A program made the translations under genes and the position numbers. Source: Synechococcus sp. PCC 7502 (lineage in GTDB: Bacteria > Cyanobacteriota > Cyanobacteriia > Pseudanabaenales > Pseudanabaenaceae). Taken from it: a stretch of DNA of 64,000 nucleotides. Under the pieces are notes generated by a model. The model made no database searches, had not been told where the DNA came from, and worked only from the letters and a program-made list of their open reading frames with translations. The stretch spans positions 588,394-652,393 of the forward strand of contig NC_019702.1 of the NCBI RefSeq assembly GCF_000317085.1. The letters are read 5' to 3'. Below are positions 8,852 to 30,356 of this stretch, one piece after another (positions within the stretch are counted from its first letter, which is position 1; each line of letters starts with the position of its first letter).

Positions 8852-10939
8852 TTAGTTCTGTGGCGGATTGGCAGGAACTCGATTATTTTCTAGGATTTTT
8901 GTAACCTCGGCACCTGGTTGATAGGTATAACCAAATTGAGAGCGATCGCTATCATCCAGAATCCTCGGAGTTACTACAATTACCACTTCATTACGAGTTT
9001 TTTCCGTTTGTTGACTGCGGAATAAAGCCCCAATAATTGGTAAATCTCCCAAGAAAGGCACCTTAGAAACTGTCTCTCGATCAAGGTCTTGAATTACTCC
9101 AGAGATGATCAAAGTTTGATTATCCCTTAAGCGAATTTGTCCCGAAGTCAAAGTTCTGCGAGATAATAGTGATGCTGTATCCCCATTACCCAAGCGCACA
9201 ATTTGGGATGGAGCTGTTACTGAAGGCGAAATCGACAGATTAATGAAACCATTATCATCAACACGGGCAATATTAATATTTAAAGTTAATCCTGCCTGTT
9301 GAATATTAGGTTGGACGGTGGTGGTTGTCACCTGATTAATTGTGGTTTGATTTTGCACAGTTCCCACCAATACATCCTGGGTCAAGCTCACCTGAGCAGT
9401 TTCACCTTCCTGTACAGTTAAAATTGGGTCAGTCAGGATTTTAGCTGTACCATTTTGGATATTAGATTGCAATCTCGCTAAAAACTGGCTGGGATACTGG
9501 AACAAAGTCGGCAAACTAAAAGTCACAGTAGTTGGGGTACCACTAGTGTTGCCAGAGGGAGGAGTACCAGGGGTAACATTAGTAATACCTGGCTGGAGAG
9601 GATTTCCTGAACCCAATGGGGAGATAGCTGAGTTAAGTACACTAGTAAGTAAACCAGTAGTTGGATCAATAGTAGCAGGATTAATAAAGGGAGTACCTGT
9701 AATCGGATTAGTAATTACTGGGCGACCAAATAGATTAGTACTGGCATCTCCAGCCGTAGAAGGACGATTTTGTCCAAAGTTGACAACCGCCGCTCCATTA
9801 TCAAAGGTAAAGAATGTATCATTTATCCCAAACGAAGAACTAGCAGTCTGGATTTGATTTCCTTGAAGGGTTACGTCCACAATTCGGACATTAACTGAAA
9901 CTTGACGCTTTCTGGCATCTAACCTACCCAGTTGAGCAGCAGCATAGTCAACCAAGCTAGGCGCACCTATTAGAGTGATCGAGTTATTTCGCTCTTCCGC
10001 CGCAATTTGTAATCCCCGCAGAGGTAGGATTGAATTAGCAGATGGGGTCAAGCTTTCTAAAGTAGGTATCGTCTCAGTAGGAATGGTTACGTTAGTTATT
10101 CCACCCGCAGTACCAACCTGTGCTGTCGTCACCCCTGGCACTGGTCTTTGACGGTTAACTGTTCTTTCTGCCCCTAACCCCAACAGGAACCCTGAAGCCT
10201 CACCCACGCTCACTTGGTTCAAACGATAACTACGGGTAACAATATTCTTTAGGTTGATTGGTAGCTTAGCAGCCACAAAAATTGTCTTGCCAATTCTACT
10301 AGCATCAAGATTACTCAAACGCAGAACGCTGTTAAAAACATCCTGAGCAGTTTCGTTCTCAATATCTAAGGATACCCGAGGACCACCTGAAGTTGCGGCA
10401 GTTGTGGTAGTACCGGGAGCAGAGTCATCGGCAAACGCAACATTCAAACCTGCCACACGGGCAATTAAAGTTAAAACATCCCTGACTGGAGCCTCCCTAA
10501 GGGAAATACGAGGAACTCTTTCTGCGCTACCTAAATCAATAGTGTCTGGTTTAATACTAAAGGTGCCAATGGAAATATCCCCTGATGGAGCAGGAATTGG
10601 TCTTCTTTGAAATGGAGGAACTATACCTTGAACTGCCCCAGGCAAAGGTTTTGAGTTTATAGAGGGAGAAGTTAAAGTTGGGGTAGTGGTTGGTTTTGCT
10701 TGAGCAATTTTAGGTTTGCCATTAGCATCCGTAATTGTTACCTTAGATTCAAATAATGGTTTAATTATTGGTGAATTTTTGGAATCAGGGGTAGTAGCTT
10801 GAGCTACTCTAACTGGAAGAGACAAGCTACTTATATCAGCTTGCACCTCATTACTTGCCTCAGACGGTAAGGCAGCTAATAAAATTTGCGGGCATACTGA
10901 TGTCAGCGCAAGGGAACAAAATAACAATTTAGTATTCAT
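8852..10939 (-). CDS. pilQ: Type IV pilus outer-membrane secretin PilQ
   Basis: From the ATG at 10939 this is a 695-residue precursor with a signal peptide (MNTKLLFCSLALTSVCPQIL). It has an N0/STN domain at about 130-230 (PRISLREAPVRDVLTLIARV), secretin N-type modules up to about 370, and the secretin beta-barrel domain at about 500-680 with RLRDNQTLIISGVIQD and VPFLGDLPIIGALFRS. The long Pro/Thr/Gly-rich insert at about 400-480 is probably a flexible loop. It forms the gated outer-membrane pore for the pilus. An AGAGGAG ribosome site eight bases before this ATG favours it over the frame start at 10966. It is last in pilM-N-O-Q. Confidence 0.95.
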   Translation of the reverse strand: MNTKLLFCSLALTSVCPQILLAALPSEASNEVQADISSLSLPVRVAQATTPDSKNSPIIKPLFESKVTITDANGKPKIAQAKPTTTPTLTSPSINSKPLPGAVQGIVPPFQRRPIPAPSGDISIGTFSIKPDTIDLGSAERVPRISLREAPVRDVLTLIARVAGLNVAFADDSAPGTTTTAATSGGPRVSLDIENETAQDVFNSVLRLSNLDASRIGKTIFVAAKLPINLKNIVTRSYRLNQVSVGEASGFLLGLGAERTVNRQRPVPGVTTAQVGTAGGITNVTIPTETIPTLESLTPSANSILPLRGLQIAAEERNNSITLIGAPSLVDYAAAQLGRLDARKRQVSVNVRIVDVTLQGNQIQTASSSFGINDTFFTFDNGAAVVNFGQNRPSTAGDASTNLFGRPVITNPITGTPFINPATIDPTTGLLTSVLNSAISPLGSGNPLQPGITNVTPGTPPSGNTSGTPTTVTFSLPTLFQYPSQFLARLQSNIQNGTAKILTDPILTVQEGETAQVSLTQDVLVGTVQNQTTINQVTTTTVQPNIQQAGLTLNINIARVDDNGFINLSISPSVTAPSQIVRLGNGDTASLLSRRTLTSGQIRLRDNQTLIISGVIQDLDRETVSKVPFLGDLPIIGALFRSQQTEKTRNEVVIVVTPRILDDSDRSQFGYTYQPGAEVTKILENNRVPANPPQN

Positions 10940-10947
10940 ATACATAA

Positions 10948-10954
10948 CTCCTCT
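10948..10954 (-). promoter_or_regulatory. Ribosome binding site that decides the pilQ start
   Basis: On the minus strand AGAGGAG lies eight bases before the ATG at 10939 and only two bases before the in-frame ATG at 10945. The spacing supports translation from 10939, which also places the signal peptide at the very N-terminus. Confidence 0.6.
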
Positions 10955-11020
10955 AAACCACTCCATAAATCATAAACTTACAAATAGAAATCTAACTAAT
11001 TACTAATTAAACCTTGAAAA

Positions 11021-11758
11021 TTATTTCTTGGTAGCTGCTGCTGCCTGAGCTAATGTCTTAATTTCTTCATCACTTGCGGGTATATAGGCAACTAATCTAA
11101 AAGTTACGCTAAGAACTGGCGGCAGTCTAGCAATTTGAGCCTTTTGTTGTTCTGGGGTAAGGTTACCAGGATTACGTATGGTTACATTCTGTCTTTTTGT
11201 TAGTTGAATATCCTGCACCACAATTAAGGTTTTAAGAGACTCAATACTTCTAAGAATTGTGATTAGGTCACTATAAGCTGCGGCAAACTGGATATTGAGT
11301 GTTTGAGTTCTATACTGTCCCTCGGGTACAATTGGACCAGGCGGAGTGGGAGAAAATGACTCCAGAAGATTCCCACTCAATTGAATTGGACTCACATTAC
11401 TAGATTTAATTAATTTATTGAGATCAATTAACAAAGTATCCATAGAGTCCTGACTTGGGAGTAGAGATAATACGGTTTCACTCCGCTCCTTGGCTGCAGC
11501 AACTTTTTGGGGCAAGTCAGCTTTTTGTTTAATTTGCGTATCTTTATCAGCTATGCTTGCTTTCTTGCTATCAATTCCCGACTTAGTTGTATCTATCGTT
11601 GTCCAGAGCGGCTGAACAAAATTAAAGAATATATAACCTGCAGTGGCGATGCCAATTACACCTAGAGCTATGCCCAAGGTTTTAGCTGAGAGGGTCTGAC
11701 CGAATAGTACCACTCCACCTGCATTTTCTTCAAAATCAGCACCAATGTTAGCTGTCAT
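11021..11758 (-). CDS. pilO: Type IV pilus inner-membrane protein PilO
   Basis: This 245-residue bitopic protein has a transmembrane helix at residues about 27-47 (LGIALGVIGIATAGYIFFNF) after a short cytoplasmic tail. A coiled-coil stretch follows (about 55-95, SGIDSKKASIADKDTQIKQK), then a periplasmic ferredoxin-like domain. PilO pairs with PilN to connect cytoplasmic PilM to the secretin. The start ATG overlaps the pilN stop by four bases (ATGA). No pilP follows before pilQ, as is usual in cyanobacteria. The spacer to pilQ is 81 bases. Confidence 0.9.
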   Translation of the reverse strand: MTANIGADFEENAGGVVLFGQTLSAKTLGIALGVIGIATAGYIFFNFVQPLWTTIDTTKSGIDSKKASIADKDTQIKQKADLPQKVAAAKERSETVLSLLPSQDSMDTLLIDLNKLIKSSNVSPIQLSGNLLESFSPTPPGPIVPEGQYRTQTLNIQFAAAYSDLITILRSIESLKTLIVVQDIQLTKRQNVTIRNPGNLTPEQQKAQIARLPPVLSVTFRLVAYIPASDEEIKTLAQAAAATKK

Positions 11759-12435
11759 TGTGCAACTACTCCTTTTTCTTGTAGTAATTTAACTCGCGAA
11801 ACTGCACCTTGAGCATCAGACTTTTGCAAATCCGCAACTAGTTTATCTGTAGTGGTGTCAGTTAGAGATGTTGTAATCTGATAGTCGACTAAAGTAATAT
11901 TGACACCCTTAACTGGAGGTTTTTGCTTTGCTGAAACCAACTTAGTTTTGGTTGGGTCTAGATATGGCGATTTTTGTAAAACCAGAAGAAAATCATTAGC
12001 CTCATCAAACCCAGTAGATTGTCCTGTTATAGTAAGATTTTTCCCCGATTCAGCTATTGTAAACACTTGAATGGTTTCTGGTGTCCTGACTCTGATGTCT
12101 TGAAGAACAACGGAGGTGGGTATATCTTTTGTAATTAGGCTTGCTAAGGTCTGTGTACGGGCTTCCGCAGCTTTAACCTCCGCCTCCGAACCAGCTAGTA
12201 CTTTCAGCTGGGCATCCAAAGCACTCTCCTTAGTAGTTAGCTGTCCAAGTTCTGCTTGTAAGGAATTAACTTGAGATTGGAGATAAAAGTAAATACCACC
12301 AACGATCGCCAATGCAACTAAAGCTACTGCCCCACCTCCAATGAGGAACTGAGAATCAGCAATAGGTGCGGACACTCCTTGATCTAGAGTCTCTGGCTCT
12401 CGATCTTTTAAAAAATTTATATCAAGCTTATACAT
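11755..12435 (-). CDS. pilN: Type IV pilus inner-membrane protein PilN
   Basis: This 226-residue bitopic protein begins MYKLDINFLKDREPE. The cytoplasmic INFL motif is the part known to insert into the PilM groove. A single transmembrane helix (about 32-52, IGGGAVALVALAIVGGIYFY), a coiled coil (SQVNSLQAELGQLTTKESAL) and a periplasmic domain follow. It sits four bases from pilM and overlaps pilO, so the three are translationally coupled. Length and layout are normal. Confidence 0.91.
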   Translation of the reverse strand: MYKLDINFLKDREPETLDQGVSAPIADSQFLIGGGAVALVALAIVGGIYFYLQSQVNSLQAELGQLTTKESALDAQLKVLAGSEAEVKAAEARTQTLASLITKDIPTSVVLQDIRVRTPETIQVFTIAESGKNLTITGQSTGFDEANDFLLVLQKSPYLDPTKTKLVSAKQKPPVKGVNITLVDYQITTSLTDTTTDKLVADLQKSDAQGAVSRVKLLQEKGVVAQ

Positions 12436-12438
12436 AAC

Positions 12439-13569
12439 TTAAGGCTCCCTCACACTTAAACCCAACACGACTGACATTCCCATTCTTTCTTGCTTGGGAA
12501 TTTCGACATCACTACTTATTGACAATGCTTCAAGGGGATCAACTTGGGATGCGGCAATTCCAAGTCTTTGACTGAAAAACTCACTGAGTTCACCAATACA
12601 TGCTCCAGGTCCAACAATTAATAGTTGGATTACATCCGAACCAGCATTTTGACTAGTATGAAAGTCAATGGAACGCCTTAGTTCATCAGCTAGATCACCT
12701 AAAACTCGAAATATGGCGGCATCACCGGGACTACTACCTTGACCAGAAAGTCCTACGGTATCGCTATTTTGAAATGGTACACTCATTGCTGCGAGCATAT
12801 CCATATCGGTGTTACGCCTAGGAGGAAGGTTAATTGCCCGTAGCTGAGCATTTTGAATTTGAGCAGTACCTATGGCTACAGTCCGAGAAAACTGGGGTAC
12901 TCCATCTACAGCTATGGTAATTTCTGTGGATTCATACTCAATGTCAACGATCGCCACTGCCTCTGCTGCTGAAGCAAACCCCGACAAACGATCTTTTAAG
13001 GCTCTAATCAAAGCAAAGCTCGTAACTTCTACCACCTCTGTATTAAGTTCAGCCGTCTGCATAGCCTGTAAATACATATCTGTCACTTCTTTGGGTGTGG
13101 CAACCATTAAAATCTCTAGTCGTTCTACCCCATCATCATCTAAGGTAGTGCCAAGTTTTTGATAGTCAACATCAGCATCCTCTCTAGGAAAAGGTAAATA
13201 TAGGCTGGCTTCTTGGTTAAGAACCATTTCCCGTAGTTCGCTATCGGATATCTCAGCAGGCAATCGAATCAACCTACTTACTGTTTCTCGCCCGGGGATG
13301 GCAGTGACAACTTTTTTTTCTTTAATTTTCTTTTCGGCGATTAGAGAGCGAATAATCTCTCCTAATACAACTGGATCATTTATACGTCCTTCCTCGACCA
13401 CTCCTTCGGGCAGAATAGTACTAGCATGACTTACTAGTTTAAAGCCAGATTTCCCCTTGCGGCGGACTTGAACAATGTTAACTCTTTCTGAGTTGATTTC
13501 AATGCCAATCCCCTGAGCTTTTACATTGAAGAGCTTGCTTAGACTACCAAAACTTAACTGAGATAACAT
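12439..13569 (-). CDS. pilM: Type IV pilus assembly ATPase-fold protein PilM
   Basis: This 376-residue actin/FtsA-fold protein has phosphate-binding and adenosine-binding loops typical of PilM: GIGIEINSERVNIVQVRRKG at the N-terminus, VVTAIPGRETVSRLIRLPAE, AVAIVDIEYESTEITIAVDG in the middle and LLIVGPGACIGELSEFFSQR near the end. It is cytoplasmic and docks to the PilN N-terminus. It is the first gene of the pilMNOQ operon; the 249-base leader upstream carries a 14-bp direct repeat. Confidence 0.94.
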   Translation of the reverse strand: MLSQLSFGSLSKLFNVKAQGIGIEINSERVNIVQVRRKGKSGFKLVSHASTILPEGVVEEGRINDPVVLGEIIRSLIAEKKIKEKKVVTAIPGRETVSRLIRLPAEISDSELREMVLNQEASLYLPFPREDADVDYQKLGTTLDDDGVERLEILMVATPKEVTDMYLQAMQTAELNTEVVEVTSFALIRALKDRLSGFASAAEAVAIVDIEYESTEITIAVDGVPQFSRTVAIGTAQIQNAQLRAINLPPRRNTDMDMLAAMSVPFQNSDTVGLSGQGSSPGDAAIFRVLGDLADELRRSIDFHTSQNAGSDVIQLLIVGPGACIGELSEFFSQRLGIAASQVDPLEALSISSDVEIPKQERMGMSVVLGLSVREP

Positions 13570-13818: not shown

Positions 13819-14628
13819 TTAAGCTAATCCAAACCAATTCAGGTAACTCCTTAGAAATTGTTCACCATAGACTAGAGAAAATGTGGCAGCGATCGCTAAA
13901 AAAGGTCCGAAGGCAAAGGGTTGTGTTTTAGCCAAGTTAATTAATCTAAGTATAAATACTCCCACTAAAGAACCAATCACCGCCGCTAGGAATAAAGTTA
14001 ATAAAACCTGTTGCCACCCTAACCAAGCTCCAATCATCGCCGCAAGTTTGGCATCTCCTGCTCCCATTGCTTCTCTCTGTAACAGCCAAGTACCTAAAAA
14101 TCTAACTGCATCAACCAGCCAAATGCCTACAACTGCACCTAGGACACTAAAAATTAATTGATCTAGTAATGACTTGCCTGACGATATGCCAATACAAATA
14201 TGAAAACAAATTCCTGAAAATAGCCCCAATTGGGTTAATGGATTAGGTAGGGTCATGGTGTCAATGTCAATTACTGCTAAGGCAATTAAACAACTGACAA
14301 ATAGGCAATAACCTACTATAACTAGGGGAGGTTTAGTAATGAAATTAACTGTAACTAGCCAAAATATTAGTGCTGTTAAGAATTCAATCAATGGATAACG
14401 CCAAGCTACTTTTTGATGACAATAGCGACATTTGCCTTTAATTAAAAACCAGCCAATAATGGGAATGTTATCTATGGGCTTTAGTCGGTTAAAGCAACTT
14501 GGACATCTTGAGGGTGGATAGAGAATAGAAATGCCAGCAGGCAGCCTATAGATCACCACATTGAGAAAGCTACCAATGCTAGCACCAAAAATAATTGCTA
14601 GGGCTTGAAATATTAGGCTCTCTAACAT
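13819..14628 (-). CDS. pilD: Prepilin peptidase / N-methyltransferase PilD
   Basis: This 269-residue polytopic membrane aspartyl protease removes prepilin leaders and methylates the new N-terminus. The zinc-binding Cys tetrad is present as CPSC and CRYC (residues about 41-75). The two catalytic aspartates lie in AVIDIDTMTLPNPLTQLG and in the GxGD-type motif MGAGDAKLAAMIG. Eight hydrophobic helices are recognisable. It lies on the same strand as pilMNOQ but about 250 bases upstream of pilM, so it is probably a separate unit. It diverges from the kinase gene. Confidence 0.95.
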   Translation of the reverse strand: MLESLIFQALAIIFGASIGSFLNVVIYRLPAGISILYPPSRCPSCFNRLKPIDNIPIIGWFLIKGKCRYCHQKVAWRYPLIEFLTALIFWLVTVNFITKPPLVIVGYCLFVSCLIALAVIDIDTMTLPNPLTQLGLFSGICFHICIGISSGKSLLDQLIFSVLGAVVGIWLVDAVRFLGTWLLQREAMGAGDAKLAAMIGAWLGWQQVLLTLFLAAVIGSLVGVFILRLINLAKTQPFAFGPFLAIAATFSLVYGEQFLRSYLNWFGLA

Positions 14629-22366: not shown

Positions 22367-24325
22367 ATGGCAGTCCGTAGTTATGCGGCTCCTCCCACGC
22401 CTTGGTCAAAAGGATTAGCTGAACCCAAAATCGATAAATCCACCTATATTCACCCTTCCGCTAATATTATTGGGGATGTCCGCATTGGCGCTAACGTTTT
22501 AATCGCCCCTGGAACTTCGATTCGTGCCGATGAAGGTAAGCCTTTTTATATAGGCGAAGGCACAAATGTCCAAGATGGTGTAGTAATTCACGGGTTAGAG
22601 CAGGGTAGAGTTACAGGGGATGATCAAAGTTCCTACTCAGTTTGGATTGGTAATGATACATCCATTACCCACATGGCACTGATTCATGGACCTGCCTACG
22701 TTGGCGATCATTGCTTTATTGGCTTTCGCTCCACAGTTTTTAACTCCAGAGTTGGTGATGGTTGTATCGTGATGATGCACTGTCTGATTGAAGATGTGGA
22801 AATTCCACCGGGTAAGTATGTCCCATCTGGTTCTATTATTACCTCCCAAGAGCAAGCAGATCGTCTATCGGATGTACAGGCAGGAGATACTAAGTTTGCT
22901 GAACATGTAATTGGTATTAATGATGCGTTACGAACGGGCTATCGCTGTGCCGATGACATTGCCTGTATTACTCCAATTCGCGTCCAAAATAATCCCAAAA
23001 CTTCTTCTAATTCACCTTCTAATTCACCTATAAATGTAGAAATAGTTACTGGCATGAATTCAACTATTAGTTCAACCACTTCAGGTAATATCTCAGGTAA
23101 TCAAATTGTAGAGCAGGTAAGACAACTCTTGTCTCAAGGCTATAAGATCGGCACCGAGCATGCTGATGATCGACGGTTTCGTACCAGTTCATGGACAAGC
23201 TGCGCTCCTTTTCAATCTATTCGAGAGGCAGAGGTAATTGCTGAATTAGAATCCTGTCTGAACGAACATAGCGGCGAATATATTCGACTGATTGGCATCG
23301 ATACTAAGGCAAAGCGCAGAGTTTTAGAGCAAATCATTCAACGTCCCCATGAAAAGGTCGTATTTAATGCCTCTGCTCTTAATTCTTACACAGCCCCCAG
23401 TTCTCGTAATAGTTCCTCTGGATTTCCCCCCAGTGGAGTGATCGCTTCTGACGTAAAAACAACTATAAATCAACTTCTAGCCCAAGGTAATCGAGTGACA
23501 GTGGAATGGGTGGATGAGCGCAGATTCAAAACTGGTTCTTGGCAGACTGCTGGTGCTATTACCTCCCTATCCCAATTAGATCAAATCACCAACGAACATC
23601 AAGGGCATTATGTCAAGGTCATTGGTACTGATCCTAAATCCAAGCGTCGTCTGGTGGAAGCGATCGTGCAGCGTCCTAATGGTAAGTATGTAGCCAATGC
23701 AGCTAGTCCTAGCAAGAGTAGTTCTAATACTGCGACTGTAGTTGGCTCTGACGTAACAACAACCATAAATCAACTTCTAGCCCAAGGTAATCGGGTGACA
23801 GTGGAGTGGGTAGATGAGCGCAGATTCAAGACCGGTTCTTGGCAGACTGCTGGTGCTATTACCTCCCTATCCCAATTAGATCAAATCACCAACGAGCATC
23901 AAGGACATTATGTCAAGGTCATTGGCACTGACCCTAAATCTAAGCGTCGTTTGGTGGAAGCGATCGTACAGCGTCCTAATGGAAAAGTCCTTAGCGTTCC
24001 CCCTAAAGCTGTAGGTTTTGGTACAGTGGCTACTTCTACGAAGGCTAACTCTTACTCTTCCAGCTCATCTCCAAGTAGTCTTAATTCTGATGTAGCAAGC
24101 CAAGTTAGCCAACTTTTTGGTCAAGGACATCGGGTGACAGTGGAAGCAGTGGATAGCCGTAGATTTAAGACTGGTTCTTGGCAGACTGCTGGTACTATTA
24201 CTACCCTTTCTCAACTGGAACAAATTATTCAAGAGCATAGCGGTGAATACGTACGAGTCATCGGGACTGACACTAAAACCAAGCGCCGAGTTTTAGAACT
24301 AATGGTGCAACGCCCCACTAAGTAA
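22367..24325 (+). CDS. ccmM: Carboxysome scaffold CcmM with gamma-carbonic anhydrase domain and four RbcS-like repeats
   Basis: This 652-residue protein starts with a left-handed beta-helix gamma-CA domain (residues about 1-200). It keeps the Arg/Asp of SIRADEGK, Gln and His of [10 protein letters not shown], and the His pair of ITHMALIHG, plus a Cys-x6-step pair in RCADDIAC, so it is probably an active, redox-gated enzyme. Four RbcS-like modules follow at about 244-328, 361-440, 461-540 and 573-652, each ending TKxKRRxLE/VxxxxQRP. These cross-link Rubisco in the carboxysome core. Repeats 2 and 3 are almost identical. A shorter form may arise by internal initiation near residue 210-240. AGGAGAA precedes the ATG. 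Confidence 0.96.
23447..23986 (+). repeat. Near-identical 240-bp tandem repeat units inside ccmM (period 300 bp)
   Basis: Bases 23447-23686 and 23747-23986 encode the second and third RbcS-like modules. By eye they differ at about 16 of 240 positions, and only one difference changes the protein (Lys to Thr at the fourth codon). The offset is exactly 300 bases. The first and fourth modules are clearly more diverged. This indicates a relatively recent duplication or gene conversion within ccmM. Confidence 0.85.
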
Positions 24326-25057: not shown

Positions 25058-25969
25058 TTGAATAAAGGCTTAATTGTTGTTTTAGGAGCTACTGCCACTG
25101 GTAAAACCAGTCTAGCCATTAAGCTAGCTCAAAAATTTAATGCTCCCATTCTTAGTGCAGATTCTCGGCAGGTATATAAACATTTTGATATTGGTACATC
25201 TAAGCCTAACCTTACGGAACGGCAGGGAATTTCCCACTATTTAATTGATATTGCTGAACCCAACACCACTCTGACCCTAGCGGAATATCAAGGACAAGCA
25301 CAAAAATTAATTGCTGAGTTCCATGCCCAAGGAATTACGCCAATTTTGGTTGGAGGTACAGGTTTGTATATCAAATCTATAGTTGCGGGTATGCAAATTC
25401 CTAGAGTTGCACCTAATTATTACTTGCGATCGCAGTTGTTAGAGCTAGGACAAAGCCAATGTCACCAAATCCTGCAACAAGTTGATCCCCGATCTAAAAT
25501 TCATGCCAACGATCAAGCTAGAACCATTAGGGCTTTAGAAGTATTTTATGTAACTGGAAAACCCCTAACTGAGCAACAGGGTGAACATCCGCCCACCTAT
25601 CCTATCTGCCAAATTGGTATATCCAGTCCTCCCCTAGAAATCTATAAAAAAATTGTGAGCGATCGCATCGAACACATGCTCAAGCAAGGATGGCTCGAAG
25701 AAATTAAATTTATCCAAAATCAGTATGGCAGCGGTTTACCTTTACTATCCACATTAGGCTATAAGGAAATGGGAACATACCTATCAGGACAAATCAATCT
25801 TGAACTGGCAAAAGAATTAACTGTTAAGCATACCCTGCAATTTGCTAAACACCAGAGAACTTGGTTTAACTCAAAAAGTTACGGGGAGGTAAATTGGATT
25901 AATAACCCCCAAAATTTTGACTCAAGTTTTAACAATATTGAAGACTTACTTAATTTTATCCATAATTGA
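25058..25969 (+). CDS. miaA: tRNA dimethylallyltransferase MiaA
   Basis: This 303-residue enzyme adds the isopentenyl group to A37 of tRNAs reading UNN codons. Walker A is VVLGATATGKTSLA (residues about 6-19), DSRQVYKHFDIGTSKP is the substrate-binding region, and TPILVGGTGLYIKSI and LSTLGYKEMG are diagnostic. The start is TTG: the Walker A motif is only nine residues from it, so no later start is possible. It starts 14 bases after ccmN and may be read from the ccm operon. Its 3' end overlaps convergent pilC by 24 bases. Confidence 0.95.
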   Translation: MNKGLIVVLGATATGKTSLAIKLAQKFNAPILSADSRQVYKHFDIGTSKPNLTERQGISHYLIDIAEPNTTLTLAEYQGQAQKLIAEFHAQGITPILVGGTGLYIKSIVAGMQIPRVAPNYYLRSQLLELGQSQCHQILQQVDPRSKIHANDQARTIRALEVFYVTGKPLTEQQGEHPPTYPICQIGISSPPLEIYKKIVSDRIEHMLKQGWLEEIKFIQNQYGSGLPLLSTLGYKEMGTYLSGQINLELAKELTVKHTLQFAKHQRTWFNSKSYGEVNWINNPQNFDSSFNNIEDLLNFIHN

Positions 25970-27160
25970 GAAGATCGGAAGATACATGCCCACAAGGATT
26001 GAACCTACCATACCCCCCAATACTACAATCATCAGAGGCTCCATAATACTAGTTAAAGCTTTGACTGCCTCTTCCACTTCATTTTCGTAGAAGTCAGCCA
26101 CCTTCATCAACATTTTATCCAGTTCCCCAGTTTCCTCACCGATTGTGATCATCTGAATTGCCATCGCTGGAAAAACCTCTTCTTTCTCAATAGCTGGAGC
26201 AATTTGCCCTCCCTCTCTTACCACTTGCCTTGCCGTAGCTAAAGCATTGGTTAAAACTTGGTTGCCAGCCGTTTCACCCGTAATTTCCAAGGCACCTAGA
26301 ATTGGTACACCTGCTCTCGAAAGGGAGCCAAAAGTACGAGAAAATCTAGCTACAGCAGTTTTTCTAAGCAAATCACCAAATAGAGGTAATTTAAGGTAGA
26401 GTCCATCTAAATATAATTTGCCAGGGGGAGTACTGTAAATATAACCATAGATAGCACCGATGATGACAATTACGATTGGAATAAGGAGAACTTGAGGGCT
26501 TCTTAAAAATAAGCTGATATTTACTAATATTTGCGTAAAAGTTGGCAATTCTCCACCCAACTGCTTAAATACACCTTCAAAGGTGGGTAGTATAAATACA
26601 CACATCCCTACAAAAATTAAAACTGCAAGAATTGATACTGTAACTGGATAGGTCATAGCTGACTTAATTTGGTTATTGAGCCGTGCTGAATCTTCTAGCA
26701 ATTTTGCCAAGCGACCTAATACATCATCCAACACCCCCCCTGCTTCACCTGCTTCAACCATGGCACAGTAAAGTTTATCAAAACATTCAGGTTGTTTACG
26801 CATGGCATCAGAAAGATTGGCTCCCTGCTGCACATCCGCAAGAATGTCTTTAAGAGATACTTTAAGCTTAGGATTCTCACATTGATCTGTTAAAACACCT
26901 AAGCCTCTTACTATTGATACGCCAGCATTTACAAGGGTTGCTAACTGACGGGAAAAAATTGCCTTATCCTTGACAGTAACTTTCTTTATAGACATGGATA
27001 GTTTTTCAAGGCTAAAACCATCAGCTACTTCCTTAATTTCTACAATCGAGAAACCTTGCTCACGCATTTTATCCCGAGCTTCTTTGATGGATTCGGCAAT
27101 AATAGTTTGTTTTACCGAGATGCCTTGGGCATTTTTAAGATCGCATTTAAATTTGGGCAT
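25946..27160 (-). CDS. pilC: Type IV pilus inner-membrane platform protein PilC
   Basis: This 404-residue protein has an N-terminal cytoplasmic segment (KFKCDLKNAQGISVKQTIIA) and two T2SSF domains (about 70-195 and 270-395) with Q-L-A-T-L-V-N-A-G-V-type helices and SIMEPLMIVVLGGMVGSILV at the end. Three transmembrane helices are recognisable. It couples the PilB and PilT motors to the pilin pool. It is the last gene of pilB-pilT-pilC; 27 bases separate it from the broken pilT. Confidence 0.95.
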   Translation of the reverse strand: MPKFKCDLKNAQGISVKQTIIAESIKEARDKMREQGFSIVEIKEVADGFSLEKLSMSIKKVTVKDKAIFSRQLATLVNAGVSIVRGLGVLTDQCENPKLKVSLKDILADVQQGANLSDAMRKQPECFDKLYCAMVEAGEAGGVLDDVLGRLAKLLEDSARLNNQIKSAMTYPVTVSILAVLIFVGMCVFILPTFEGVFKQLGGELPTFTQILVNISLFLRSPQVLLIPIVIVIIGAIYGYIYSTPPGKLYLDGLYLKLPLFGDLLRKTAVARFSRTFGSLSRAGVPILGALEITGETAGNQVLTNALATARQVVREGGQIAPAIEKEEVFPAMAIQMITIGEETGELDKMLMKVADFYENEVEEAVKALTSIMEPLMIVVLGGMVGSILVGMYLPIFSIMDKIK

Positions 27161-27187: not shown

Positions 27188-28316
27188 TTAACCACTAATG
27201 GAGCGGGACTTAATAAGAGATTGATCCTTGGGATCGTACACAGCCTTTTTACGAACTACAGAAGCTGGATTTGGACCAACCAAACGATGTAATTCCTCAG
27301 GACGAGAAGTTTTAGAAATTGCAGCTTCAAAGCTAATCTCACCTTCTTTGTATAAATCTGCTAAAACTGACTCTAGGGTCTGCATGGACTCTTTACCTCC
27401 CGTTTGGATAAACCCATACATCTGTGCCGTTTTACCTTCCCGAATCAGGTTAGAAATTGCTGGAGTTACGATCATAATTTCCTGTGCCATGACTCGACCA
27501 AACTGCCCAGGTTGGGGATTCGCCCGTGGAATTAAAGTTTGGCTTAGGACAGCAACGAGAGAGTTAGATAATTGCACCCGAATTTGTCCCTGTTGACTAG
27601 GTGGGAATACATCTACCATTCTATCTACGGTTTGGGCTGCCGAACTAGTATGCAATGTGCCGAATACCAAGTGCCCTGTTTCTGCTGCCGATACTGCTAA
27701 TTGAATTGTTTCTAAGTCTCTCATTTAGGGCAGCTTTGAGCGCAAAAGCAAAACTTTTAGTATCTTCACCAACCTGTCTTTGATTAATGACACTTTTGAC
27801 AGATTCGTAGACAAATTCAATGGGGTCTTCAACCGTCAGAATATGCTCGGCTCTAGTTTTATTAATGGTTTGGATCATTGCTGCTAGGGTTGTCGTTTTA
27901 CCTGATCCAGTCGGACCTGTTACTAGTACTAATCCCCTAGGTTTCTCCGATAATTCCTTCACAATTGGGGGTAGCTTCAAATCATCCATGTCGGGAATTT
28001 TAGAAGATAATGCCCTTAAACAAGCAGCAACTGTTCCTCGATCTTTATAAACATTGACCCGAAATCTAGCTAAGCCCTTAACTCCGTAGGAGCAGTCTAG
28101 TTCCCAATTTTGCTCAAATATTTTACGCTGATTATTGTTTAACATCGCAAAGATCAGCCTTTGGGTTTCCTCAGGGGTAAGTGGATCGCGATCGGTAGGT
28201 GTGAGATGTCCACTAATCCGAATATAAGGAGGTAAACCAGCCGAGATATGAAGGTCAGAAGCTTTGCGCTCCACTACCTCTTCCATTAAGTCCTCAATAA
28301 TATAGTCCATTACCAT
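27188..28316 (-). pseudogene. pilT: pilT retraction ATPase, disrupted by an internal 32-nt deletion
   Basis: The first part (from ATG 28316) encodes a normal PilT start and Walker A (VLVTGPTGSGKTTTLAAM) down to FALKAAL. Family members continue there with about eleven residues of the type REDPDxILVGE and then MRDLETIQLA. Here GCCCTA is followed by a single A and then ATGAGAGAC (junction at 27725). About 32 bases are missing, the frame shifts, and translation ends at 27645. The downstream half (from 27724, MRDLETIQLAVSAAETGHL to the end) is intact, with no other lesion. The missing piece includes Walker B, so neither part can hydrolyse ATP. PilT retracts pili; loss normally gives non-retracting pili. 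Confidence 0.9.
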
Positions 28317-28346: not shown

Positions 28347-30356
28347 TTAAATATCTCTAACCGTAGTACAGTAAGGGCACTCGATCATTTCTGGTTTTAA
28401 GATGGCATGGCAAGTTGTACATTCTAGGCTGGTTTTACGTTTTGCCCGTTCTTCCGCTTCTCGCCCTTTATCTGTGTAGGTAACACGCAAGACTTCTTCA
28501 AGGGTGGTTCTACCTTCACGCACTAGATCAAAGCTGTAAGCCATAAGAGTTTTCATCCCTTCTGCTACCGCAATTTCTTTGATCGCATCAGTGGTTGCAC
28601 CTTTATTAATCGCACTTTGTAGCCGCTCGGTCATTTTCATGATTTCATAGCAGCCAACTCTACCTTTATAGCCGTTGCCTCCACATTTGGGACAGACTCG
28701 ACCTCTACCTGCTTTAGCCGCCGCAATTTCAACGTGACCAATAGTATTAGCTTTATAGAAGGTTAGTTCCATATCGCTTTTTGGTAGTCCAAACTGCTCA
28801 ATTTCCTCTTTAGAAGGGTTATAGGGAATGCGGCAATTATCACAGACTTTACGCAGTAGCCTTTGTGCTAAAACCCCAATTAAGGCTGTACTGGTCATAA
28901 ACGGTTCTACCCCCATCTCATCAAGACGGGCGATCGCACTGGGAGCATCGTTGGTATGCAGAGTTGTTAATACTAAGTGTCCAGTTAAAGCAGCTTCAAT
29001 GGCAGTTTTCGCAGTTTCTTTATCTCTAGTTTCTCCCACAAGGATCACATCAGGGTCTTGACGAAGGAATGCCCGTAAAATCATGGGAAAATCCATACCC
29101 TTATCTCGAATCACTTGGCACTGGGTTAAACCGGGCAAGCTATATTCAATGGGGTCTTCGGCGGTACTAATATTAATACCAGGATCATTTGCTTCAGCTA
29201 GAGTTGAGTAAAGAGTTGTGGTTTTACCTGAGCCAGTTGGTCCTGTAACCAAAATCAGCCCGAATGGTCGCCGTGCCATGTCTTGCATAATTTTTAAGCT
29301 TTCAGGATCAGTAATTAGTTTATCTAAACCAAGCTGAGTATTGGAGTTGTCTAGAATCCGTAGTACGATCTTTTCACCGTAGGGAGTAGGTAATGTACTG
29401 ACCCGAAAATCTACCCTGCGCCCTTGGAAGTTACGCTTAAGTTTGCCATCTTGAGGTTTACGGCGTTCAGCAATATTCAGGTCAGAGATAATTTTGAATC
29501 TTGAGGTAACAGCGTTAACAATCTTACGTGGCAGTTGCTTATCTTCATCGGTAATCATGGGTCTGAGTACCCCATCTTTGCGGAATCTAATTCTTAACTC
29601 CTTTTCTTGAGGTTCAATGTGAATATCTGATACTCCCTCTTTAAGGGCACGGACAAGAATTTGATCAACAAGCTTAATAATCGGAGCGGAATTTTCACCT
29701 ACGGATTTGTCGAGATCGTCATCGGGATCGGAAACATCTGATAATGAAGCTCCTTCATCAAAATCTGCTATTTCTAGGTCTTTTTCACTGACCGAATCAT
29801 TACTTTTACTTTTTGTAACTTGCAGATCAATAATTTGGTCAAAAATTGTGAGGAAATCTTCTTGGGAAATCACCCTCCTCTTAAGACTGAGCTTTTGAGC
29901 ATCTGCTATGCGTTTAAGTTCAGTATCTGCTTTGGAGTTAGCAGGTGAGACTAGTGCTACGAGTAGGGATGATTCGTCCTTTGACAGGGGGAGAACTTGA
30001 TATTCTCGACATGTGGCAATTGGAACTACGTTAGCTTCGATCAGTTCACTTAGTTTGGCGGGGTTAAACTTTTCAATTTCAATGGCGGGATCTATGCTTT
30101 CCAGCCCATAGAGTATTTTAAGCTCAAATAGGTTAACTTGCTTATAAAAGCGAACAATACCAGGAGCAAGTGCTTGACCAATAATGTCTTCTAGGGCGGC
30201 AACAAGTGTTATTCCTGATTCTTGGCTTTTTTTACGAGCTTGGTCAAACTGTTCTTGCGTGGCTTGCCCATCTGCAATCAATTTTGCTTCAAAGGGAGTT
30301 CTGCCACTTCTAATGGCAAGGGCATTAACTCTATTGGTGGGAGTAGATGGGGGCAT
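28347..30356 (-). CDS. pilB: Type IV pilus extension ATPase PilB
   Basis: This 669-residue secretion-ATPase has an N-terminal MshEN domain (about 15-165), an N2 region (ISDLNIAERRKPQDGKLKRN), Walker A (LVTGPTGSGKTTTLYS), an Asp box, and an intact Walker B (RQDPDVILVGETRD). A zinc tetracysteine is formed by VCDNC and VCPKCGGNGYKGR. PilB powers pilus extension. An extra C-terminal zinc ribbon (CTTC and CPYC, residues about 649-665) extends beyond the usual end. It is first in pilB-pilT-pilC, with a 30-base gap to pilT. The intact Walker B here contrasts with its loss in pilT. Confidence 0.95.
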   Translation of the reverse strand: MPPSTPTNRVNALAIRSGRTPFEAKLIADGQATQEQFDQARKKSQESGITLVAALEDIIGQALAPGIVRFYKQVNLFELKILYGLESIDPAIEIEKFNPAKLSELIEANVVPIATCREYQVLPLSKDESSLLVALVSPANSKADTELKRIADAQKLSLKRRVISQEDFLTIFDQIIDLQVTKSKSNDSVSEKDLEIADFDEGASLSDVSDPDDDLDKSVGENSAPIIKLVDQILVRALKEGVSDIHIEPQEKELRIRFRKDGVLRPMITDEDKQLPRKIVNAVTSRFKIISDLNIAERRKPQDGKLKRNFQGRRVDFRVSTLPTPYGEKIVLRILDNSNTQLGLDKLITDPESLKIMQDMARRPFGLILVTGPTGSGKTTTLYSTLAEANDPGINISTAEDPIEYSLPGLTQCQVIRDKGMDFPMILRAFLRQDPDVILVGETRDKETAKTAIEAALTGHLVLTTLHTNDAPSAIARLDEMGVEPFMTSTALIGVLAQRLLRKVCDNCRIPYNPSKEEIEQFGLPKSDMELTFYKANTIGHVEIAAAKAGRGRVCPKCGGNGYKGRVGCYEIMKMTERLQSAINKGATTDAIKEIAVAEGMKTLMAYSFDLVREGRTTLEEVLRVTYTDKGREAEERAKRKTSLECTTCHAILKPEMIECPYCTTVRDI

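Follow-up and report, generated by a model that had tools for sequence, protein, structure and literature searches.

In the pilB-pilT-pilC locus of Synechococcus sp. PCC 7502 the gene encoding the retraction ATPase of the type IV pilus is not continuous, which raises the question whether PilT has been lost, and if so, when and with what consequence. The strain, a Sphagnum bog isolate of 1972 now included in Pseudanabaenococcus habilitatus (PMC12961181), provides a reference genome for a cyanobacterial lineage that branched early and is secondarily unicellular, and was among those scored for natural-competence genes. The window studied here is a 64-kb stretch (G000:C3:588394-652393) of its genome of 3,583,735 bases; unless a contig is named, coordinates refer to this window. 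The gene order pilB-pilT-pilC, read on the minus strand, is the same in the sister species G001:

28347 to 30356, minus strand: pilB, extension ATPase, intact, 669 aa (open reading frame, profile search, comparison with the sister species)
27645 to 28316, minus strand: pilT1 5′ fragment, 199 PilT residues up to KAAL followed by 24 out-of-frame residues (TIGR01420 positions 2-194)
27188 to 27724, minus strand: pilT1 3′ fragment, 178 aa, starting at the native internal Met of GEMRD (TIGR01420 positions 204-343)
25946 to 27160, minus strand: pilC, platform protein, intact, 404 aa (open reading frame, profile search, comparison with the sister species)

The pilC gene overlaps miaA of the plus strand tail to tail by 24 bases (25946-25969).

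On the minus strand PilT can be read from position 28316 to FAFALKAAL, where the frame changes, and then from MRDLETIQ to position 27188. The resulting open reading frames of 223 and 178 aa are in different frames. The first-pass annotation of this DNA had described PilT as conserved up to KAAL and again from MRDLETIQ, between intact pilB and pilC genes, and the reading frames and profile matches bear this out. The fragments scored 273.3 bits (5′) and 180.5 bits (3′) with TIGR01420 (NCBIfam; PilT/PilU family type 4a pilus ATPase), and neither reached the curated full-length cut-off of 319.1 bits. The split gene lies between pilB and pilC and its closest relatives are PilT1 proteins. Besides the fragments the genome has PilT2 and PilB-like genes only, with no other intact PilT1 copy, and we classify the locus as a pilT1 pseudogene.

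The lesion was defined by aligning the DNA with pilT of 30 relatives:

27726 to 27727, minus strand: deletion junction, located to within about 1 nt (DNA alignment with 30 relatives)

Exactly 32 nt, the size given in the first-pass annotation, are missing between ...GCTGCCCT and AAATGAGAGAC. PCC 7502 is the sole carrier of this gap among the 31 aligned genomes (0/30 relatives share it). The junction sequence occurs once in the 64-kb window, with 0 occurrences expected by chance. The deletion takes out the codons of REDPDVILVG together with two bases of the Glu codon that follows. The stretch REDPDxILVGE had been reported as missing with a shift of frame, which is correct, and as replaced by a single base, which is not: a plain 32-nt deletion needs no foreign base, because the codons GAA ATG, cut short by it, leave 'A ATG'. 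What is established about secretion ATPases identifies the missing stretch as the Walker B strand, which carries the catalytic Glu. The lost residues align with REDPDVI(F/L)VGE of the solved PilT structures 2ewv and 2gsz, and correspond to REDPDVIFVGEMRD of 2ewv.

The 5′ fragment holds the N-terminal domain, the Walker A motif (GPTGSGKTTT) and the Asp box (EDPIEF), and REDPDxILVGE, the Walker B motif with the catalytic Glu, is deleted. Judged from the residues lost and from what is established about catalysis, ATP hydrolysis is beyond either fragment and any frameshifted fusion, because the Walker B strand with its Glu is deleted and the frame is shifted. The two reading frames are uninterrupted and highly conserved, as would be expected if they were translated and cooperated, or if recoding restored PilT. 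Such a rescue is scarcely credible: the catalytic Glu is in neither fragment, no Shine-Dalgarno-like sequence was found upstream of the ATG of the 3′ fragment, and this ATG is an internal Met codon of ancestral PilT. With Walker B gone we ruled out a two-part protein or recoding, in agreement with the earlier claim that neither could restore ATPase activity.

A second change was found close to the junction:

27744 to 27746, minus strand: TTT (Phe) in place of the Asn codon (AAT/AAC) of family relatives (DNA alignment, homologue comparison)

This two-base change, AAT to TTT, is located 17 nt before the deletion junction and yields a perfect TTTTGCTTTTGC tandem. PCC 7502 reads FAFAL and the aligned family members FANAL, except G011 (FQAAL); Phe occurs at this site in 0/76 PilT homologues. 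The statement of the first-pass annotation that neither half carries another lesion missed this substitution, but beyond the one site no decay was seen. The substitution may belong to the same mutational event as the 32-nt deletion. Deletion between direct repeats was also considered and rejected, as reading by eye revealed no suitably spaced flanking repeats in the sister sequence, whose bases are those of a sister and not of the ancestor.

The age of the lesion was assessed by comparison with G001. The pilT1 DNA of the two species is 82.5% identical, and both fragments have 97% amino acid identity to the PilT of G001. The dN/dS values of the fragments (0.006 and 0.012), which are rough because dS is near saturation, lie below those of pilB (0.035) and pilC (0.029). 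At alignment columns on which three outgroups agree, two changes are specific to the PCC 7502 fragments and two to G001. The high identity, the low dN/dS and the equal numbers of lineage-specific changes indicate that pilT1 was under normal constraint until very recently; on these comparisons the lesion is very recent, as had been proposed.

If the living strain had an intact pilT1 and the deletion came from faulty assembly or consensus calling, one would likewise expect a gap that is isolated and unique, with purifying selection extending right to the break; the odd TTTTGC doubling beside the gap might be a consensus artefact. We consider such an error improbable. The sister sequence, read by eye, shows no direct repeats flanking the site at a spacing that would let them collapse, a 32-nt loss is unlike a homopolymer error, and the chromosome was assembled as one contig of 3.51 Mb at 99.9% completeness. 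The best explanation, in which we have high confidence, is that PCC 7502 recently acquired a null mutation in pilT1, the gene of the main retraction ATPase.

The distribution of PilT1 was surveyed in 193 sampled genomes of the class, using the PilT1 of the sister species as query. A full-length match was present in 175 of the 193 genomes (174/192 in the high-quality subset). Fifteen of the 18 genomes without a match belong to one family with small genomes (1.6-2.3 Mb); the other three are G037, in which a contig end cuts pilT, G099 and PCC 7502. G099 is a 98%-complete cyanobacterial draft in 250 contigs from outside the small-genome family. In G011, a draft of 320 contigs from another genus of the family of PCC 7502, pilT is split by a 1-nt loss in the same codons (GCGGC-CTCC, in a C run; G011:C248:1500-6500, around 2735). 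A single base lost from a C run, in a draft this fragmented, may be a sequencing error.

The G011 frameshift bears on the possibility that the PCC 7502 allele is natural, that is, already present in the 1972 bog isolate, with non-retracting, sticky pili tolerated or favoured there. Cells of P. habilitatus, according to its description, live singly or form irregular agglomerations (PMC12961181), and ΔpilT1 cells flocculate more (PMC6755745), both of which fit such an origin. However, pilT1 is intact in G001 and nearly all of the family, the G011 break may be an error as noted, and PCC 7502 pilT1 shows no decay beyond the one site. The allele may thus be natural rather than laboratory-derived, but we regard this as unlikely. 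Highly improbable is a broader scenario in which pilT1 of Pseudanabaenaceae is repeatedly broken at the Walker B stretch, the breaks of PCC 7502 and G011 lying within a few bases of each other, natural populations gain from locked-out sticky pili, and a compound template-switch event in PCC 7502 combined the 32-nt deletion with TTTTGC copying 17 nt away.

The first-pass annotation had recommended searching the genome for a second intact pilT. One other full PilT-family gene turned up, intact, at G000:C3:2824032-2825054. It keeps all motifs (GPTGSGKST, EDPIEF, REDPDIILIGEMRD), and its product, whose N-terminus is rich in proline, shares 40% identity with PilT1; by these sequence features it is PilT2 as defined in PMC12288463. 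The hypothesis of a redundant PilT1 elsewhere in the genome was rejected, since only PilT2 was found. PilT2 (sll1533 type) resembles PilT1 as a PilT/PilU family ATPase with all motifs, but differs in its sequence, N-terminus and distinct locus, and did not functionally replace PilT1 in published mutants. Disruption of pilT1 leads to hyperpiliation and loss of function, pilT2 mutants retain pili, and PilT1 was not replaced by other retraction ATPases in the tested cyanobacteria (PMC12288463). An intact paralogue had been named as a finding that would abolish the functional consequence of the lesion. PilT2 only weakens the prediction, because in published work it is no replacement for PilT1. Residual function through PilT2 or motor-independent retraction could exist.

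The remaining pilus genes in the window include:

8852 to 13569, minus strand: pilM-pilN-pilO-pilQ, all open reading frames uninterrupted (secretin identified by PF00263; M, N and O by gene order and sequence)
13819 to 14628, minus strand: pilD, prepilin peptidase, 269 aa, intact (open reading frame)

Six pilin-like genes and comEC are uninterrupted in the genome. No wider decay of the type IV pilus (T4P) system was seen among pilB, pilC, pilMNOQ, pilD, the pilin-like genes and comEC.

The 32-nt deletion takes away Walker B and its Glu and shifts the frame. In the mechanism that we propose for the null mutation, pili would still be assembled by the intact PilB, PilC, PilMNOQ and PilD, and PilT1 retraction would be absent. 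From Synechocystis and S. elongatus mutants, the cells would be expected to be hyperpiliated and unable to twitch, to transform poorly or not at all, and to clump readily. PCC 7502 is probably unable to twitch or to take up DNA, and the earlier prediction of a piliated, non-retracting phenotype is supported by analogy with these mutants. The closest counterpart is disruption of pilT1 (slr0161) in Synechocystis sp. PCC 6803, in which the PilT1 of the pilBTC locus is likewise lost and PilT2 kept (PMC12288463, PMC6755745); hyperpiliation and loss of T4P function would be expected in both. The PCC 6803 mutant was engineered, whereas PCC 7502 is another species with a spontaneous 32-nt deletion and a predicted phenotype.

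Culture, where non-motile cells would be tolerated, is the most likely setting in which the mutation arose or became fixed; domestication of this culture-collection strain, isolated in 1972, is plausible to likely. Spontaneous T4P mutations are frequent in the laboratory (PMC12288463). Laboratory substrains of Synechocystis carry spontaneous frameshifts, in pilC in GT-Kazusa and in spkA in GT strains (PMC10068330). Like PCC 7502 they are culture-collection strains with small indels breaking motility or competence genes; in PCC 7502, however, pilT1 is struck within the catalytic motif and the laboratory origin is only putative. Loss of pilT1 by a small deletion is of an ordinary kind, well known from cyanobacterial laboratory strains, and its interest is strain-specific. 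The 32-nt lesion of PCC 7502 was not described in the literature searched.

In a survey of competence genes the PilT quotient of PCC 7502 was 0.5, that of nearly all other strains 1.0-1.5, and quotients of 0.2-1.0 were interpreted as a gene that is present but of lower homology (PMC7292380). The broken pilT1 explains the value better than lower homology does. If the deletion is real, the low score reflects a broken gene and not divergence, a lack of motility or competence in PCC 7502 is uninformative about its lineage, and the strain is a natural test of pilus retraction by PilT2 alone.

Elsewhere in the window, a repeat search revealed three SSU-like repeats of 239 nt in a ccmM-like carboxysome gene (22367-24325). 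Two adjoining copies (23447-23685 and 23747-23985) have 94% DNA identity, which suggests recent duplication or gene conversion.
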